A stretch of DNA of 19,435 nucleotides, taken from contig JAJRTR010000003.1 of the NCBI GenBank assembly GCA_024278215.1, positions 1 through 19,435 on the forward strand. Reading direction: 5' to 3'. This DNA comes from a bacterium. GTDB lineage: Bacteria; UBP15; UBA6099; JAJRTR01. Numbering within the stretch: position 1 is the first letter of the stretch; every line of letters begins with the position of its first letter. This document shows, one piece after another, positions 3,105 through 19,435 of the stretch. The position numbers were made by a program, and so were the translations under genes. Below the pieces are notes generated by a model. The model was not told the origin of the DNA, did not search any database, and saw only the letters and a list, made by a program, of their open reading frames with translations.

Positions 3105-4865
3105 TCACATATCATCAATAAAACGATATAGTGTGGCGCGAGCAACGCCAAGCAGCTTCGCCGCGCGCGACTTGTTGCCTCCGGTACTTTCAAGAGCAGC
3201 GCGAACCGAGTTCTCATCGAGTATCCGCCTGCGCCCCGGTTTTATGGTGGTGGCGGCATCAGGTCTGACACATACCTCCGGCGGCAGGTGTATCGGTTCG
3301 ATCAAATCGCCCCGGCATTTTACAAGCGCGAACTGTATGGCGTTCTGCAATTGCCGCACGTTGCCGGGCCAGTAGTAATCCAGAAGAACGTCCACGGAAT
3401 CAGCGGAAAAACGCACCTCTTTACTGTCCGAATCGGATGACATGGTTTTTAAAAAATGCTCGGCGAGCAACAGGATATCGTTGCGCCGTTCACGAAGCGG
3501 CGGAAGTGTGACAGGCACCACGCAGAGCCGGTAGTAAAGGTCTTCTCGAAAAACGCCTTTTTCCATGAGATTCTTCAGGTCCCTGTTGGTTGCGCTGATC
3601 GCCCGCACGTTCACTTTAATGATTTTCTCGTCGCCGACGCGCTCGATGGTGCCTTCCTGTAGTACGCGAAGGAGTTTCACTTGGATAGAAAACGGCATTT
3701 CTCCGATTTCGTCGAGAAAGATAGTGCCGCCGTCCGCCAGTTCGAAGCGCCCTTTTTTGTCTCTGACGGCACCGGTGAACGCGCCCCTGACATGGCCGAA
3801 AAGTTCGCTTTCTATCGTCCCTTCAGGTAGAGCGCCGCAATTCACAGGCACAAAGAGATTGCCCGCGCGACGGCTCTCATTGTGTATCGCAGCCGCTACC
3901 AGTTCCTTGCCGGTTCCGGTTTCGCCCTGGATCAGCACCGGCGCGTCACTCTCTGACAGGTCGCGGATAAGGTTGAACACTGCCTGCATTTTATGGTCTT
4001 TCCCGATGATTCCGTCAAACTGGCGTGTGTCCTCGAGGCGGCTTTCGAGTTCGACTATTCGTGTGGTGTCCTTGAAAGACGCGATCACTCCGACGGTAGC
4101 GCCCGTCTCGTCGTACATAGGTACTACGGACATTTCAACGCGCCGCTTTTCGCCGTCTCGCGTGAGCATTTCCACCGGGTATGCCCTGTGGTCAAATTCG
4201 GCGACCGCATTGCCCCGGAAACTGCATTTTCCGCCGCAGAAACCTTCGGGAAATGTTTCGTGGCAATCATGCCCCACTACCTGATCCGCCGGATGGCCGG
4301 TTATTCTTTCGGCAGCTTTATTGAAATGCAGGATACGTCTATCGAGATCGTGAACGATTATTCCATCCGTTAAATTATTGAGGACTGTGCTGAACTGTCT
4401 CTTCATGGAAAGTATTACATCGTAGTAGCCTCTTTCGAAAAAATCGAATACGAGTTGCCTGATACGGTCTCGCGAGTTGCGAAACACCTCGATGATTTCC
4501 TCATCGGTACCGGTCGCGGAGGCAGGGTCCGGCAGGTTCCAGGGGATGACGGGCGGAGTGCCCGGCAGCGGCGGACAGTTTTCCCTCGCGTGATTACACA
4601 GAGTAATAACTGCATCGAAAGCGATTGAATCAAAACTCTTCATATCTCTGGTTTTATGGTTCGAAATATCAATGCCGATTTCTTTCATGACAGTGACGGC
4701 AAGTGGATTTACGCTTGCGGCGGGGTCTGTCCCCGCGCTGATTGTCTCCACACCATCCGGCGACGCCCCGCGTGCGAACGCTTCGGCCATCTGGCTGCGG
4801 CACGAATTCCCCGTGCATAGAAATAGAACTCTATTCATTTTTATGTTTTCAGTCACACTTTCCAC
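3105..4865 (-). CDS. Arsenate reductase/LMW-phosphatase domain fused to PAS-sigma54-dependent activator
   Basis: A transcriptional activator with a complete ArsC-type domain at its N-terminus. Residues about 11-145 carry the P-loop C17-TGNSC-R23 (CX5R), the redox cysteines C90 and C97 of thioredoxin-coupled arsenate reductases, and the general acid D113 (LPDPA). A PAS domain follows (about 155-275) with clustered C201, C210 and C214. The AAA+ domain (about 284-510) has Walker A GETGTGKE, the sigma54-contact loop GAFTGA (361-366), Walker B GGTIFLDE and the arginine-finger region. The C-terminal Fis-type helix-turn-helix ends at 586. Start choice is uncertain. The GTG at 4865 has GGAAG upstream, whereas the ATG at 4838 gives the usual ArsC N-terminus (MNRVLFLC) but has a poor ribosome site. 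It is monocistronic and flanked by citrate synthase and the oxidative-stress operon. Confidence 0.93.
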   Translation of the reverse strand: MESVTENIKMNRVLFLCTGNSCRSQMAEAFARGASPDGVETISAGTDPAASVNPLAVTVMKEIGIDISNHKTRDMKSFDSIAFDAVITLCNHARENCPPLPGTPPVIPWNLPDPASATGTDEEIIEVFRNSRDRIRQLVFDFFERGYYDVILSMKRQFSTVLNNLTDGIIVHDLDRRILHFNKAAERITGHPADQVVGHDCHETFPEGFCGGKCSFRGNAVAEFDHRAYPVEMLTRDGEKRRVEMSVVPMYDETGATVGVIASFKDTTRIVELESRLEDTRQFDGIIGKDHKMQAVFNLIRDLSESDAPVLIQGETGTGKELVAAAIHNESRRAGNLFVPVNCGALPEGTIESELFGHVRGAFTGAVRDKKGRFELADGGTIFLDEIGEMPFSIQVKLLRVLQEGTIERVGDEKIIKVNVRAISATNRDLKNLMEKGVFREDLYYRLCVVPVTLPPLRERRNDILLLAEHFLKTMSSDSDSKEVRFSADSVDVLLDYYWPGNVRQLQNAIQFALVKCRGDLIEPIHLPPEVCVRPDAATTIKPGRRRILDENSVRAALESTGGNKSRAAKLLGVARATLYRFIDDM

Positions 4866-7179: not shown

Positions 7180-8541
7180 TTATTCCGGGCCGGAATTCAT
7201 AACAGTACTAAGTTCTTCGATCTTATTGTTCTTGATCCTGTAGTCATAGATATCTTCCATATCCTTGTAGACCTGGAATATCTGGAAGAAACCGTGCCAT
7301 TGTGTATAATCGGCTCCGAACATGGCGGTGCCCTGCCTGGCGCGGCGGCCAGTGTGATGCCACAAATAATAATTGAGTTCCTGGAAACCGTCACTCCATG
7401 GATCGTCCTTCAGGAGGTTTTTACTCTTGAGGTCATTCTTCATGGCAGTAGCTTTATCAAAGTAGAAATTGTAGAGATCGACCGCGTTGTCCAGATTGGA
7501 TCTCTGGACATCGGTATGTGTTTTTGCATGGCAATTGCTGCAAACCTGCCGCATCAGCTTATCGCCTTTCTCGCCGTTGCCGCGTTCGCCGGACCTGACA
7601 ACGCTTCTGGGGTGAACAAGGTCCCATTTCAATCTTTCATTTATATTATGAGTAGTATTCAGATCACCGATGCCACTCATGTGACATGTGGCACAAGTGG
7701 GCGCAGTGTAATCGCCCGGCTCCCATACGCCGGGGGCGCTGTCCCATTTCCATTCGTCTCCGTGAGCGAGGAACTGCTGCCCGTGTTTGCTGCTGAGGTA
7801 AATCTCGATGTCCGGATGATCCGGGCCGAGGTGGCAGCTCGCGCAGGCTTCGGGTTTTCTGGCTTCTTTGAGGTCGAAGTTGTGGCGTGTATGGCAGACT
7901 GTACAGTTTCCGATGCCACCGTCGGGATACCGTTCACCGATGCCGCCGGGCCATGTATTGTTTATCGGCCTGTTGTCCGGGCCGAGTTGCACCTCGCCGC
8001 CGTGGCAGGACTGGCATCCTGCCGCCCTCACAGTGCTGACGGAAGGAGCGTCTTTATCATTACCTGCGAAAACGCCGCCTTCCAAATGGTACATCAGTTT
8101 CTGGAATTTATCTTTTTCGAGAACCGGCACGCCAGCGAGTCGCGCGTGTCCGCTTTTCGAGAACTGCTCGACTTCCGCCGGATGGCAGCGTGCGCAAGTT
8201 TTCGGCGACACCATAGGAGAGATGAAAATCTTACTGCCCTTTATCCCCTCGCACTGGCCTGCCATGGGCGAACTCTTTTTCACGGAATGGCAGTCGATGC
8301 AGGAAACCGCCGCATGGGACATGCGACCGCTTTTCCATGACTCGACGATGCCGGGTGTTTTCTTCGCGTGGCACTCGACACACTTCGCCGCGTCTTTCGT
8401 GTATCCCTGGTCGATTGTTATTTCGCGCAGACCGTCAAGGTTCAGCGAACCGTTCTTTTCGGCTGCCCATAGCACGGAAAAAGCTGCCGCTACCATGAAC
8501 ACTGTCACAAGGACAATAAAAAGTTTTCTCGCTCTTGCCAT
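7180..8541 (-). CDS. Octahaem cytochrome c of the hydroxylamine oxidoreductase (HAO) family
   Basis: A periplasmic multihaem enzyme of 453 residues. The signal peptide is residues 1 to about 26 (basic start, hydrophobic core, LWA-A cleavage region). Eight CxxCH haem sites start at C54, C81, C116, C176, C213, C233, C283 and C334. Spacing and local motifs such as [20 protein letters not shown] with SSKHG, and CHAKTHTDV match the HAO family. In organisms that pair this protein with a NapC/NrfH-type cytochrome, as here, it is generally thought to work reductively on nitrite, NO or hydroxylamine. Y412 in DYTQWHG lies in the C-terminal region where the cross-linked catalytic tyrosine of true HAO occurs; its equivalence needs an alignment. 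The ATG at 8541 follows AAGGAG. It is the last gene of the operon. Confidence 0.9.
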
Positions 8542-8608: not shown

Positions 8609-9133
8609 TTACTCCCGTATGTTGTCTGCGCTCATGAAATCCGCGACATCGCCATGACCGGCTTCATCATGACACGTAACACACGTCATGCTCGTCTCGC
8701 CGAGTTTATACTGATTATGCGCCCGGTAAGCCTTGAGCGGTATGCCTTGCGCCACCAGTTCGACATGACATTTCCTGCATCCGGTGTGGTACGTGTATTC
8801 TTCGCTGTCTTCGAGATTCGCGATCCAGTCCGTCTTCCTGCCGGTAATGTGCGCCCAGGTATCGTTCGCTCCGGACTTCCCCTTGGCCAGCATGTATGCC
8901 AGGGTACCGGTGTGAGGCAGGTGACAGTCGACACAGACAGCTTTCACGACACCCTTGTCTTTCATACCGTGCGAAGTCTCGCTCCACGAATCGTAAAAAG
9001 GCTGCATCTCGTGGCAGGACGCGCAATATTCAGGTGTGCTTGTATACTCGACAGCCGAGTAAAAAACCAGCGACGATATTCCGATAACGATCAGAATAAC
9101 GAACAGCTTTATAAATATCGCTCGATTAAACAT
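8609..9133 (-). CDS. NapC/NrfH-family tetrahaem membrane quinol dehydrogenase
   Basis: Oxidises menaquinol in the membrane and passes electrons to a periplasmic multihaem partner. The 174-residue protein has an N-terminal membrane anchor (about 8-27) and four CxxCH sites starting at C37, C67, C119 and C151. The first site continues as CASCHEM, giving the methionine (M43) that ligates haem 1 in NrfH-like proteins. It lies 67 bp upstream of the octahaem HAO-family gene and 21 bp after the porin, so the octahaem protein is its likely electron acceptor. The ATG at 9133 has AGGA close upstream. The TonB-like or NrfA-type genes that accompany nrfH elsewhere are absent here. Confidence 0.92.
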
Positions 9134-9154: not shown

Positions 9155-10564
9155 TTATCGAAAATCTTTCAAAAGCTGGAGGTAACCCCAGTCGGAATCG
9201 TCCGATGACGCGCCATTAATATTGTCAATAAAATCTCCTGTGAAGAATCGTGAATATCCTGCCTGGAACTTGTAACCCTTCGGGCAGGTGTACTTGAGAG
9301 TGAGATCGAGCTCGGAACCGACATCCGTGCCTGCCGCGCCGGTCGCGTCTGTCATGTTGGCCGCGCCGGACGCTTTGTACCATGAGTCGGTCGATTCGTC
9401 GAGTTTGAATTTGTGGTAGTCGAGTTGTGTCGACACGCCCCGGCCGAGGTCGCCGCCGATGCTGAGGCGCAGGTTTTTCATATTCTTCCAGCCCTGATAA
9501 TCTATGAAACCGTATTTGCCGTGGTTTGTCGGGTATAGCTGGTCGAATGTTTTGCTCTTCGTCGCATCGTCGTCGCCGGAAGCGAAGTTATATTCCGAAC
9601 CGATCCATAATTTGCTCGCGCCGGGAAACGCATACTTCATGCCGATGTGCCACGCAAGCGCGTCGTGATCCTGGCCGCCGGTGTCGCCGCTCTGGATGTC
9701 CACTTCCCAGTCGAGACTCAAGCCGTTATCGAAGTTGAGTTTTGTAATATTGCCGAATGTGTAGATTTTCGTTTTGTCGACGCCCGTCGCGTCGGCGTCC
9801 TTAAACAGAACATACAGTGACGGCTTGAGGATACGACTACTGCTCCAGTTGTAGACAAGCCCGTACAGATTGGTGTCGTCGGTCGCAGTTGTAGCGCCTT
9901 CGACAGCTTTAAGCGCGTAGATGTCGAACATGCCGGAAGCAGTGGGAGCCAGGAGCCGGACACCGTCGAACGCGCGACCGTTGTTGCTCCATCCGAAAGA
10001 GCCCACGAGGCGCTGACTGCCCAGCGTAACTTCCTGTCGACCTATGCGCAGCGTGCGGCCTTCGCCCAGCTCGACGAATCCCTGGTGGAGATCGACATTG
10101 TCAATTGAGCCTGCCGCGCCTGTGAGCAACTCACCGCCCCATATTCGAGTGTCCTGGAGTTGCACAAAGTAACGCGCTTCGGATGCTCTGCCGTCGATGT
10201 CGAGCCTGATGCGCTGACCTGTGAAATCATTGTGGTCCTGCGTCAGGTCGCTGAAGTCGGAGTTCGACTTGAATTCGCTTCTGAAACGTATCTGCGCCGA
10301 AAATTTCATCGGAGGCGGGGCGGGAACCCTGCGCTCCGCTGCCCTGGCTGCCCCTGCCGCTTTTTTGCAGGGCCGCTGTACGTCCGTCTGCGCTTTCGCG
10401 GCTGCTTCGGCCGCTACTTCTCTCGCTTCGTCTTCTGTGAGTATTCCCTTCTCGACAAGTATCCTTATCAAAACGTCATTATTACATCGAGATGGCGACG
10501 CTTCGATTCTGAAACCTGCAAAACCAAATAACATGATACAGATTAAGACAAAAACCTTTTTCAT
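9155..10564 (-). CDS. Outer-membrane beta-barrel porin (alginate-export-like family)
   Basis: A 469-residue predicted outer-membrane protein. It has a signal peptide (MKKVFVLICIMLFGFAGF, cleavage near IEA-S) and a short helical region (about 25-70) with LVEKGILTEDEAREV, common at porin N-termini. An Ala/Pro-rich linker is followed by a long alternating beta-strand region rich in aromatic residues and Asp/Gly turns that resembles the Alginate_exp barrel. It ends in a phenylalanine-containing terminal strand (LQLLKDFR). The ATG at 10564 is chosen for the signal peptide and GGAGGT ribosome site; an ORF extension to 10759 runs through the leader and promoter. It is first in the operon with NapC-like and octahaem cytochromes, suggesting uptake of their anionic substrate or release of product. 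The substrate is unknown. Confidence 0.85.
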   Translation of the reverse strand: MKKVFVLICIMLFGFAGFRIEASPSRCNNDVLIRILVEKGILTEDEAREVAAEAAAKAQTDVQRPCKKAAGAARAAERRVPAPPPMKFSAQIRFRSEFKSNSDFSDLTQDHNDFTGQRIRLDIDGRASEARYFVQLQDTRIWGGELLTGAAGSIDNVDLHQGFVELGEGRTLRIGRQEVTLGSQRLVGSFGWSNNGRAFDGVRLLAPTASGMFDIYALKAVEGATTATDDTNLYGLVYNWSSSRILKPSLYVLFKDADATGVDKTKIYTFGNITKLNFDNGLSLDWEVDIQSGDTGGQDHDALAWHIGMKYAFPGASKLWIGSEYNFASGDDDATKSKTFDQLYPTNHGKYGFIDYQGWKNMKNLRLSIGGDLGRGVSTQLDYHKFKLDESTDSWYKASGAANMTDATGAAGTDVGSELDLTLKYTCPKGYKFQAGYSRFFTGDFIDNINGASSDDSDWGYLQLLKDFR

Positions 10565-10612
10565 TGCTACTACCTCCGGTAAATGATAACAGCTTAATAA
10601 TATATCTTCAGG

Positions 10613-10627
10613 ATAACCGGCGGTTAT
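10613..10627. repeat. 15-bp palindrome in the porin operon leader
   Basis: ATAACCG and CGGTTAT flank a single G (arms 10613-10619 and 10621-10627) in the roughly 150-nt untranslated leader of the porin operon, about 50 nt before its start codon. It could be an RNA hairpin or an operator half. Confidence 0.4.
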
Positions 10628-10696
10628 ATCTATGGTAATGCATTTGCCGGTATTAAATATCCTCAAAAACAGCTTGTGTTGTTCTGCGAATATAGT

Positions 10697-10712
10697 TGAT
10701 TCTTTTGGTCGA
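10697..10712 (-). repeat. 16-bp inverted repeat, copy at the 5' end of the porin transcript
   Basis: The minus-strand sequence TCGACCAAAAGAATCA occupies about the first 2-17 nucleotides of the transcript predicted from the promoter at 10720-10749. It is the exact reverse complement of the sequence exposed in the hcp terminator loop (10873-10888 read on the minus strand). Confidence 0.8.
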
Positions 10713-10719
10713 TTGGGGC

Positions 10720-10749
10720 ATTCTACCGTAAATAAAATTGTTTTGTCAA
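10720..10749 (-). promoter_or_regulatory. Sigma70-type promoter of the porin-NapC-HAO operon
   Basis: On the minus strand a perfect TTGACA -35 box (10744-10749) is 18 bp from a TAGAAT -10 box (10720-10725). The predicted start is near 10713, giving a leader of about 150 nt before the porin ATG. Confidence 0.72.
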
Positions 10750-10760
10750 TATGATTCACA
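10744..10760. promoter_or_regulatory. Candidate CRP/FNR-family site over the porin promoter -35
   Basis: The inverted repeat TGTCAAT-N3-ATTCACA (arms 10744-10750 and 10754-10760) matches itself at six of seven positions. It is centred roughly 39 bp upstream of the predicted start, near the position used by class II CRP/FNR activators. The half-site resembles those of HcpR/FNR-type regulators of nitrosative stress, but no such regulator is encoded in this window. Confidence 0.4.
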
Positions 10761-10839
10761 TTAAAAATAATTCATGTTCTTTCGAGATAATATACAATTC
10801 GCAGCAGCACAATGTTGCAATCGAGCCGTTGAGATATAT

Positions 10840-10906
10840 AAAATAAAACTGGAGCGGTTGCTGCATCTGTTCTCGACCAAAAGAATCATTCCGCAGTCCG
10901 CTCCAG
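10840..10906 (-). terminator. Long-stem terminator of the hcp operon with a 40-nt loop
   Basis: On the minus strand CTGGAGCGG (10906-10898) pairs perfectly with CCGCTCCAG (10857-10849), followed directly by TTTTATTTT (10848-10840). It lies 54 bp after the hcp stop. The 40-nt loop is unusually long for an intrinsic terminator. Its centre holds the 16-nt sequence complementary to the start of the porin operon transcript. Confidence 0.8.
10873..10888 (+). repeat. 16-bp inverted repeat, copy in the hcp terminator loop
   Basis: TCGACCAAAAGAATCA on the plus strand, so hcp RNA carries the complement TGATTCTTTTGGTCGA inside its terminator loop. It is identical over 16 bases to the minus-strand copy at 10697-10712, whose centre is 176 bp away. 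Confidence 0.8.
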
Positions 10907-10960
10907 CTTCTTACACTTTCAGTTGTTTTTTACTCAGACATTCATTGCTCTGCCGATAAC

Positions 10961-12607
10961 TCATCCGGCGAGGCAAGCTTTCAGGTCCTCTTCTACTGTA
11001 CTTATCGGCGCGATGTTGAACTTCTCGACAAGGATATTCAGAGCGGCGGGAGTAACGAAAGCCGGCAGGCTGGGTCCGAGTTTGATGTTCTGTATGCCCA
11101 GGTGCAGCAGGCTGAGAAGGATAGCAACCGCCTTCTGCTCGTACCATGAAAGGATCATCGAAAGAGGAAGATCGTTGACGCCGCAATCGAAAGCGCCGGC
11201 GAGCGCGACTGCTATCTGGACAGCCGAGTAGGCATCGTTGCACTGGCCGCAATCGAGCAGGCGCGGGATGCCGCCGATGTCGCCGAATTCGAGTTTGTTG
11301 AAGCGATACTTACCGCAGGCAAGTGTCAGAATCACACAGTCGTCGGGCACTGCTTCGGCAAATTCCGTGTAGTAGTTGCGGCCCGGTTTCGCACCGTCGC
11401 AGCCTGCCACGAGGAAGAAATGCTTGATTGCGCCGCCCTTGACGGCTTCGATGACTTTGTCGGCCACGCCGAGCACCGCGTTGCGTGCGAAACCGATGGT
11501 GATCGTTTTGTCCGGGCCGTCTTCGGCGAAACCGTCCGCCGCCAGTGCGGCTTCGATCACAGGCGCGAAGTTCCTGTCGGAAATGTGCGTCACGCCGGGC
11601 CAGCCCACCAGTCCGCATGTGAAGATTCTCGCGTTATATGTCTCTCGCGGTTTCTGGATGCAGTTTGTCGTCATCAGGATCGCGCCGGGAAATGCTTCGA
11701 ATTCCTTTTTCTGGTTCTGCCACGCGCCGCCGTAGTTTCCGGCGAGGTGGCTGTATTTCTTCAGTTCGGGATATGCGAGCGCAGGAAGCATTTCTCCATG
11801 TGTGTATACGTTGATGCCTTTGCCTTCCGTCTGCTTCAGCAGTTCTTCGAGGTCTTTGAGATCGTGGCCGCTCACGAGTATCGCTTTGCCCTTCAGCGGC
11901 TCGATGCGCACCTGTGTCGGCTCGGGATGCCCGTAGGTGCCTGTGTTCGCCGCGTCGAGTATCTCCATCACCTTCAGGTTGACTTCCCCGCATTTCAGAC
12001 ATAAGCCGAGCAGTTCGTCAACCGTCGGATTTTCCTTCGTCAGGAAAGCAAGCGCCTCGTGCATAAACGCAAACACGCTTTCGTCTTCCTGTCCGAGAAT
12101 CTGCGCGTGGTCCGCATAGGCTGCGACACCTTTGAGCCCGTAGGTGAGGAGTTCCTGGAGACCGGTGATGTCTTCGCCCAGCGACTCCTTACGTTTTTCG
12201 ATGCCTACAGCCCTGCCCTGTTCCACCATGCCCTGGATGTCGGCGGCCGGTCTGCATGAATCGGGCCTGGCCGGAATCGCAGGTTCCTTACCCGCGCCTT
12301 TACAGGCGTCTTCATACAGCTTTTGCGCCCTGTCGGTCAGTTCGTCACATTTCAGGATCAGTCCCTTGAAACGCTCCGGATCGAAATTCACATTCGTCAG
12401 GGTCGAGAACAGTGCCTCGGCGATGAAAACATCTATCTCGTGGTCTTTCGCCCCGAGCTGCCGCGCTCCGTGCGCGTATGTCGCAAGGCCTTTCAGCCCG
12501 TGCACCAGCAGGTCCTGCATCTCGGCAGTGTCGCTGTTCTTGCCGCATACACCGACTTTCGTGCATCCGGTTCCTTTTGAAGTCTGTTCACATTGATAAC
12601 AAAACAT
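10961..12607 (-). CDS. hcp: Hydroxylamine reductase / NO reductase (hybrid-cluster protein)
   Basis: Cytoplasmic Fe-S enzyme that reduces NO or hydroxylamine in nitrosative-stress defence. The 548-residue protein has the N-terminal [4Fe-4S] ligands C3, C6, C15 and C21 in the CX2C-X8-CX5C spacing of anaerobe-type Hcp. Hybrid-cluster ligands are all visible: H248 (VSGHDL), E272 (THGEML), C316 (TTNC), C403 (VAGCDGAKPGR, the persulfide position), C431 (LACGKYRF), C456 (DCGQCND), E490 and K492 (WYEQKAVA). It is the last gene of the five-gene operon, and its ATG directly abuts the stop of the HD gene. No Hcr-type flavin reductase is adjacent, so the co-encoded ferredoxin proteins are the likely electron donors. 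A strong terminator follows. Confidence 0.97.
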   Translation of the reverse strand: MFCYQCEQTSKGTGCTKVGVCGKNSDTAEMQDLLVHGLKGLATYAHGARQLGAKDHEIDVFIAEALFSTLTNVNFDPERFKGLILKCDELTDRAQKLYEDACKGAGKEPAIPARPDSCRPAADIQGMVEQGRAVGIEKRKESLGEDITGLQELLTYGLKGVAAYADHAQILGQEDESVFAFMHEALAFLTKENPTVDELLGLCLKCGEVNLKVMEILDAANTGTYGHPEPTQVRIEPLKGKAILVSGHDLKDLEELLKQTEGKGINVYTHGEMLPALAYPELKKYSHLAGNYGGAWQNQKKEFEAFPGAILMTTNCIQKPRETYNARIFTCGLVGWPGVTHISDRNFAPVIEAALAADGFAEDGPDKTITIGFARNAVLGVADKVIEAVKGGAIKHFFLVAGCDGAKPGRNYYTEFAEAVPDDCVILTLACGKYRFNKLEFGDIGGIPRLLDCGQCNDAYSAVQIAVALAGAFDCGVNDLPLSMILSWYEQKAVAILLSLLHLGIQNIKLGPSLPAFVTPAALNILVEKFNIAPISTVEEDLKACLAG

Positions 12608-15515: not shown

Positions 15516-15535
15516 GTATTCTGGTACCAGTATAC
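15516..15535. promoter_or_regulatory. 20-bp palindromic operator at the Rrf2-hcp operon promoter
   Basis: GTATTCTGGTACCAGTATAC is symmetric at nine of ten base pairs, centred between 15525 and 15526. It spans the -10 box and the predicted transcription start, an ideal repressor position. The divergently symmetric form and the adjacent Rrf2 gene suggest the regulator binds here. Confidence 0.7.
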
Positions 15536-15557
15536 TCCTTATTGACCACTCTGTCAA
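15529..15557 (-). promoter_or_regulatory. Consensus sigma70 promoter of the Rrf2-to-hcp operon
   Basis: On the minus strand a perfect TTGACA -35 box (15552-15557) and a TATACT -10 box (15529-15534) are 17 bp apart. The predicted start is near 15522, about 30 nt before the TTG start codon. Confidence 0.82.
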
Positions 15558-18884: not shown

Positions 18885-19295
18885 TTAAGCAAGCGTATCA
18901 ACAAAATACAAGTCTGCCGCTTTTCGTATACCCATTGTGAAAGTGGGATAGGCATGTATCAGACCTGACAGTTTGTAGACGGGAATCCTGTGCTTCATCG
19001 CAAGGCAGATTTCCGACATCATATCCCCTGCGCGGGAGGCGACTATTGTGGCCCCAAGTATTTTCCCGGACCATTTGAATGTGACTATTTCGATAAATCC
19101 TGCTTTCTCACTTTCGGTTATTGCCCGGTCAAGATCGGATAACTCGTATCGGTATGTGTGGACTTTGGCAGAGCCGTATCTTTCCTCCGCTTCCTTCTTG
19201 AGCATTCCCACATGTGCAATTTCCGGGTCCAGGAAAGTTGTCCATGGCACAACACTGTAATCCATCTTCGACTTAATATATGGAGCCAGTTGCAA
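18885..19295 (-). CDS. C-terminal fragment of a FAD-dependent pyridine nucleotide-disulphide oxidoreductase, probably truncated
   Basis: Only the dimerisation domain of a mercuric-reductase/dihydrolipoamide-dehydrogenase-like protein is present, 136 residues against about 450-500 for the family. Recognisable parts are MDYSVVPWTTFLDPEIAHVG, GKILGATIVASRAGDMMSEI and the C-terminal HAYPTFTMGIRKAADLYF. In the last, the usual HxxPTxxE dyad Glu is Met. The reading frame continues upstream of the TTG at 19295 to a TGA at 19329-19331, then enters a palindromic repeat; no FAD- or NAD-binding domain is encoded in the remaining bases. The gene is probably disrupted by the repeat, or the window end is an assembly junction. 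It precedes TVP38, a frequent partner. Confidence 0.75.
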   Translation of the reverse strand: MQLAPYIKSKMDYSVVPWTTFLDPEIAHVGMLKKEAEERYGSAKVHTYRYELSDLDRAITESEKAGFIEIVTFKWSGKILGATIVASRAGDMMSEICLAMKHRIPVYKLSGLIHAYPTFTMGIRKAADLYFVDTLA

Positions 19296-19323
19296 AATTA
19301 TGTTCGAAGCGAGGTCGAGCGAA

Positions 19324-19419
19324 ATTGTTCAGAGCAAGGCGGAGGTGTAAAATCCTCGCAGGCGTACTTGTAGAGTACGTCGAGGACGATTTCGCGCCAA
19401 CAACGCAGCTATGGACAAT
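19324..19419. repeat. Nested palindromic (REP/MITE-like) element
   Basis: Outer arms starting ATTGTTCAGAGC (19324) and ending in GCTATGGACAAT (19419) are imperfect inverted repeats. Inside them, AAATCCTCG and CGAGGACGATTT, then GCGTACT and AGTACGT, form a long central hairpin with a loop near 19370. The total is about 96 bp. Such structures are typical of small non-autonomous mobile or REP-like repeats. It abuts the broken oxidoreductase frame. Confidence 0.6.
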
Positions 19420-19435
19420 AGCAGCCGACCGCAGC

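Follow-up and report, generated by a model that had tools for sequence, protein, structure and literature searches.

A single-copy 16-bp inverted repeat between the hcp terminator and the predicted start of a porin-cytochrome operon is most likely of neutral origin

A perfect 16-bp inverted repeat places one arm at the apex of the hcp terminator hairpin and the other at the predicted first nucleotides of the mRNA for a porin, a NapC-type cytochrome and an octahaem cytochrome. On balance, we believe that this single-copy, non-mobile repeat is most likely without function, the product of coincidence or of a template-switch copy. A regulatory pairing of the two RNAs ranks second, and we give it clearly less weight; these weights are our judgement and were not computed. 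The window referred to below is the whole stretch of 19,435 nucleotides that was analysed.

Results

The repeat and its setting

The sequence-only reading had reported exact complementarity over 16 nt, and both 16-mers are indeed present, TGATTCTTTTGGTCGA at 10697-10712 and TCGACCAAAAGAATCA at 10873-10888, with a spacer of 160 nt. On the minus strand an intrinsic terminator comes after the hcp operon, and the next 160 nt hold the promoter and beginning of the porin operon:

10961 to 12607, minus strand: hcp, hybrid cluster protein/hydroxylamine reductase (above the NCBIfam equivalog cutoffs)
10837 to 10911, minus strand: hcp intrinsic terminator, with stem arms at 10898-10909 and 10846-10857, an extended apical hairpin and a U-tract
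10873 to 10888, minus strand: Arm 2, TGATTCTTTTGGTCGA in the hcp sense, at the apex of the hcp terminator hairpin (exact match and fold)
10720 to 10749, minus strand: porin-operon promoter TTGACA-18-TAGAAT (11 of 12 matches; start predicted at 10713/10714)
10697 to 10712, minus strand: Arm 1, TCGACCAAAAGAATCA in the porin-operon sense, at about +2 to +17 of the predicted mRNA (exact match)
10565 to 10713, minus strand: leader of the porin-NapC-octahaem mRNA, about 150 nt, with the Shine-Dalgarno sequence GGAGG just 5' of the ATG at 10564
9155 to 10564, minus strand: outer-membrane porin of the Alginate_exp family (PF13372, E 1e-49)
8609 to 9133, minus strand: NapC/NrfH-type tetrahaem cytochrome (4 CxxCH)
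7180 to 8541, minus strand: HAO-type octahaem cytochrome (8 CxxCH)

hcp is the final gene of an operon containing an Rrf2 regulator. The promoter of this Rrf2-to-hcp operon, TTGACA-17-TATACT (15529-15557, minus strand), overlaps a palindrome, TTGACAGAGTGGTCAA, which is near the HcpR consensus TTGACnnnnGTCAA (PMC1274295) but has a spacer two bases longer. Elsewhere in the window, a sigma-54 activator (3105-4865, minus strand) has PAS and Fis-type HTH domains together with an N-terminal low-molecular-weight phosphatase/arsenate-reductase-like domain, an unusual fusion.

The hcp 3' UTR is predicted to fold at -38.5 kcal/mol (z -3.9) and, judged by this modelled fold and the U-tract, the terminator is real. 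The open 40-nt loop that had been attributed to it did not hold up: the region is predicted to be an imperfect extension of the stem, in which only UUGGUC and one bulged A of the 16-mer are unpaired, and about nine or ten of its 16 nt are base-paired within the hairpin. A genome survey for long-loop terminators returned numbers too small for statistical treatment; under its strict stem rule even the hcp terminator escaped detection.

TTGACA-18-TAGAAT is the only minus-strand promoter found between hcp and the porin gene. Its earlier description as near-consensus stands, whereas the placing of the arm at transcript nucleotides 2-17 is a prediction, the alternatives being +2 to +17 and +3 to +18. 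An imperfect 17-bp palindrome, TGTGAATCATATTGACA (10744-10760, minus strand), overlaps the -35 element of this promoter, with its centre near -40; it resembles CRP/FNR-type sites, at a non-canonical spacing. In the porin leader (10565-10665, minus strand) a hairpin GGAUA..ACCGGC / GCCGGU..UAUCC is predicted, and its CCGGU could instead pair with ACCGG adjoining the Shine-Dalgarno sequence. The leader has no Rfam match and as a whole folds no better than shuffles. Rfam scans of the window, and of the intergenic region at a permissive threshold, returned no meaningful match.

Copy number and chance expectation

Counted genome-wide, exact copies of the 16-mer in the 4.55-Mb assembly are these two only, and the same assembly holds no further site with one mismatch or none. 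Six more sites have two mismatches; at least four of them lie inside long open frames and one is a ribosome-binding site. A near-match on contig C146 was considered as a further copy and rejected as an ordinary ribosome-binding site. The word is not palindromic and lacks dyad symmetry. No second copy of the 400-nt region was found across this genome, and a search with the 192-bp segment gave no significant match, either in the rest of the genome or in six same-order genomes. The repeat ends abruptly, the similarity of the sequences flanking the arms being no greater than chance (anchored p 0.42 and 1.0). An extension past 16 nt was also rejected: an extra CTGCG-AA match is present and is not significant.

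Background rates for inverted pairs were taken from 1.54 Mb of stretches of this genome. When the 393-nt region was simulated 20,000 times with a Markov model, a match of 15 nt or more never arose and one of 14 nt arose seven times. Over the 1.54 Mb, a second-order Markov model predicted 0.67 pairs of 15 nt, and its six runs produced no pair of at least 16 nt; extrapolation at fourfold per base puts chance pairs of 16 nt or more at about 0.2 per 1.54 Mb and about 0.6 per genome. The real sequence of the sampled 1.54 Mb contains 47 pairs of at least 16 nt. Ends of multi-copy elements account for 44 of these and the remaining three are single-copy, the hcp-porin pair included; one of the other two is nearly a hairpin and the other lies in a stretch with more repeats of the same word. 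The sequence-only reading had called chance very unlikely, which is upheld for the 393-nt region and weakened for the genome: the 16-nt match is locally rare, yet not improbable as a one-off per genome.

Relatives

The source genome is the sole member of its family among the genomes searched, and its closest six genomes are kin at the level of order only. Three of the six carry hcp, at about 70-74% identity. Two of these three have an unrelated next gene and a short-loop terminator after hcp, and the third has an ordinary GC-rich terminator there. No orthologous hcp-porin junction was found in 60 relatives, in the whole phylum (7 genomes) or in a wider collection of genome contigs. Relatives of the octahaem protein, reaching 71% identity across most of their length, occur in distant lineages, where the porin-hcp junction is missing.

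Predicted RNA interactions

An interaction prediction for the hcp 3' UTR against the porin leader, which had been proposed as a check, came out favourable. The 16-bp duplex is predicted at -23.4 kcal/mol, with an opening cost of 6.6 at the terminator apex and 0.3-1.3 in the leader, for a net of about -15.5 kcal/mol. Among the gene starts of the window, the porin leader is by a wide margin the best partner of the apex (-25.0 kcal/mol, the others ranging from -6.2 to -16.9, accessibility not counted); the apex does not show unusually good pairing to the leader of the operon that carries it. Ranked on raw duplex energy, 310 of 18,240 genome segments are equally good or better partners for the apex, mostly, we infer, because they are richer in G+C. 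The suggestion that folding of read-through RNA controls termination found no support, as the minimum-energy fold of that RNA (pseudoknots aside) lacks the long helix. Genes for Hfq and RNase Y are present in the genome, in which RNase E/G models find nothing and RNase J was not found with TIGR00649.

Discussion

We infer both the neutrality and the origin of the repeat. It would have arisen by chance, or through a template switch in replication that left a short inverted copy, and it would have persisted because both copies lie in tolerated places, one at the tip of a terminator hairpin and one at the distal 5' end of a long untranslated leader. Perfect reverse-complement copies have been documented as products of template switching (PMC8794818). 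Those cases share the perfect copy and the abrupt ends with the present repeat, although they form hairpins in RNA genes whereas the copies here are 160 nt apart. Abrupt ends are as expected of a short copy or of coincidence, and the expectation of about 0.6 chance pairs per genome, together with the two other single-copy pairs in 1.54 Mb, also supports a neutral origin. That no copy occurs elsewhere, and that hcp in the relatives has an ordinary terminator and a different downstream gene, points the same way. Against neutrality, the local match is beyond simulated chance, the two gene sets are biochemically coupled, the predicted pairing is strong and better than at any other gene start of the window, and the arms occupy two suggestive places at once, the terminator apex and what are predicted to be the first nucleotides of a transcript. 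The argument from placement is post hoc, however; many alternative placements would seem meaningful too.

If the repeat acts as RNA, the hcp 3' UTR, whether within the mRNA or processed into a small RNA, would pair through the terminator apex with nucleotides 2-17 of the porin-NapC-octahaem mRNA, the UUGGUC loop pairing first and the full 16 bp following. Since the porin start codon at 10564 is about 150 nt downstream, this pairing would miss the ribosome-binding site, and with that site about 130 nt away the likely effect would be on the stability or decay of the porin-operon mRNA. The outcome would be that the hydroxylamine-forming enzyme is made dependent on transcription of the hydroxylamine-consuming one. 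We regard such pairing as possible but unlikely. The fuller proposal is that the hcp terminator apex serves as antisense to the 5' end of the mRNA from the adjoining operon, hcp transcription thus setting the lifetime of that message; it would couple neighbours at the RNA level through a terminator loop and an mRNA 5' terminus, and we regard it as slightly less likely still.

Biochemistry lends the pairing some appeal. In the proposed reverse-HURM route a NapC-family cytochrome and HaoA convert nitrite to hydroxylamine, which Hcp then removes (PMC3701875), and the claim that both operons handle reactive nitrogen is supported, the NapC and octahaem HAO-type module and Hcp corresponding to successive steps of this route, with a putative nitrite-reductase role for the octahaem protein. 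The cheaply opened 5' end of the leader, the strength of the predicted duplex, the rank of the porin leader among the gene starts and the presence of Hfq and RNase Y are likewise consistent with pairing, and there are precedents. In Streptomyces coelicolor, s-SodF forms an 18-nt pairing with the 5' end of sodN mRNA (PMC3919588); there, as here, a 3' UTR is the perfect complement (18-19 nt in that case) of the extreme 5' end of a functionally related gene's mRNA, a feature that we find for a target 5' end that is itself predicted. The present case differs in that the genes are adjacent, the ribosome-binding site is some distance off and the pairing is predicted. In RepG/tlpB of Helicobacter pylori (PMC8295292) the pairing element also lies in a terminator loop and the target in an mRNA leader, but RepG is an independent transcript whose C/U-rich loop acts on a G-repeat. 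RoxS/yflS of Bacillus subtilis (PMC5419742) is a further precedent and differs in that RoxS is a stand-alone conserved small RNA that acts against RNase J1; given that neither RNase E/G nor RNase J was matched, the RoxS mechanism may not apply here as such. What weighs against pairing is that more than half of the 16-mer is tied up in the terminator hairpin, that 310 segments do equally well or better, and that a search for an internal promoter for a separate small RNA found none.

Readings in which the repeat acts as DNA fare less well. A recombinase might flip the 160-bp segment between the arms. In the assembled state the porin promoter faces its own operon and the hcp terminator is intact; in the flipped state the promoter would face hcp, the terminator would be broken and hcp transcription would continue into the porin operon. 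Invertons that lie between genes and contain a promoter have been described as a class (PMC11892184), and as in invertible promoters (PMC8748976) perfect inverted repeats here lie either side of an intergenic promoter, which ends right at an arm, before a gene for a surface protein. In silico, inversion does reverse the promoter and abolish the terminator hairpin, and the genome encodes five tyrosine recombinases, on other contigs. The window contains no recombinase gene, however, the genome has no second such site, and one boundary of the segment falls inside a well-formed terminator, so we consider an invertible promoter improbable. More improbable still is the shared DNA operator that had been suggested, two non-palindromic copies 176 bp apart through which a regulator represses or loops the porin promoter. 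The copy predicted at +2 to +17 would be in a possible roadblock position, but the word's failure to recur makes an operator unlikely: no other genomic site has one mismatch or fewer, those with two mismatches lie mostly inside open frames, none is at the hcp operon promoter, and the word has no dyad symmetry.

A relic of a MITE-like mobile element, 192 bp long with 16-bp ends, is disfavoured, and we judge it very unlikely. Elements of similar size are abundant in the genome, and one family likewise has ends beginning TGATTC. Yet the segment is single-copy, shows no similarity to the families in 0.8 Mb and has no target-site duplication, its flanks being ATAGT and TTCCG as against GTAT, GAAT or TTAT in the 178-bp family; moreover, the terminator stem would have one arm inside the element and one outside. 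At least four multi-copy MITE-like families, of about 178, about 143, 76 and 93 bp, are present in the genome. The family of about 178 bp, with GAGCCAATTGCAAAATT at its ends and target duplications of four bases, has a density of about one copy or more per 20 kb; that of about 143 bp has TGATTCGTGTGTAATAAGTC ends. The right end of the window (19283-19435) lies within a copy of the 178-bp family that is about 90% identical to another copy, and the contig probably ends there because of this repeat.

In conclusion, the repeat is sound and its place is suggestive, and selection is not demonstrated by these data. If it is non-functional, as we think most likely, it is a caution that, in a genome with thousands of intergenic regions and a dense population of inverted-repeat elements, a perfect 16-bp pair at a suggestive spot is to be expected now and then. 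If the pairing were true, it would provide a compact check on hydroxylamine, a toxic intermediate, in which two successive enzymes are linked by RNA and a terminator serves as the regulator.
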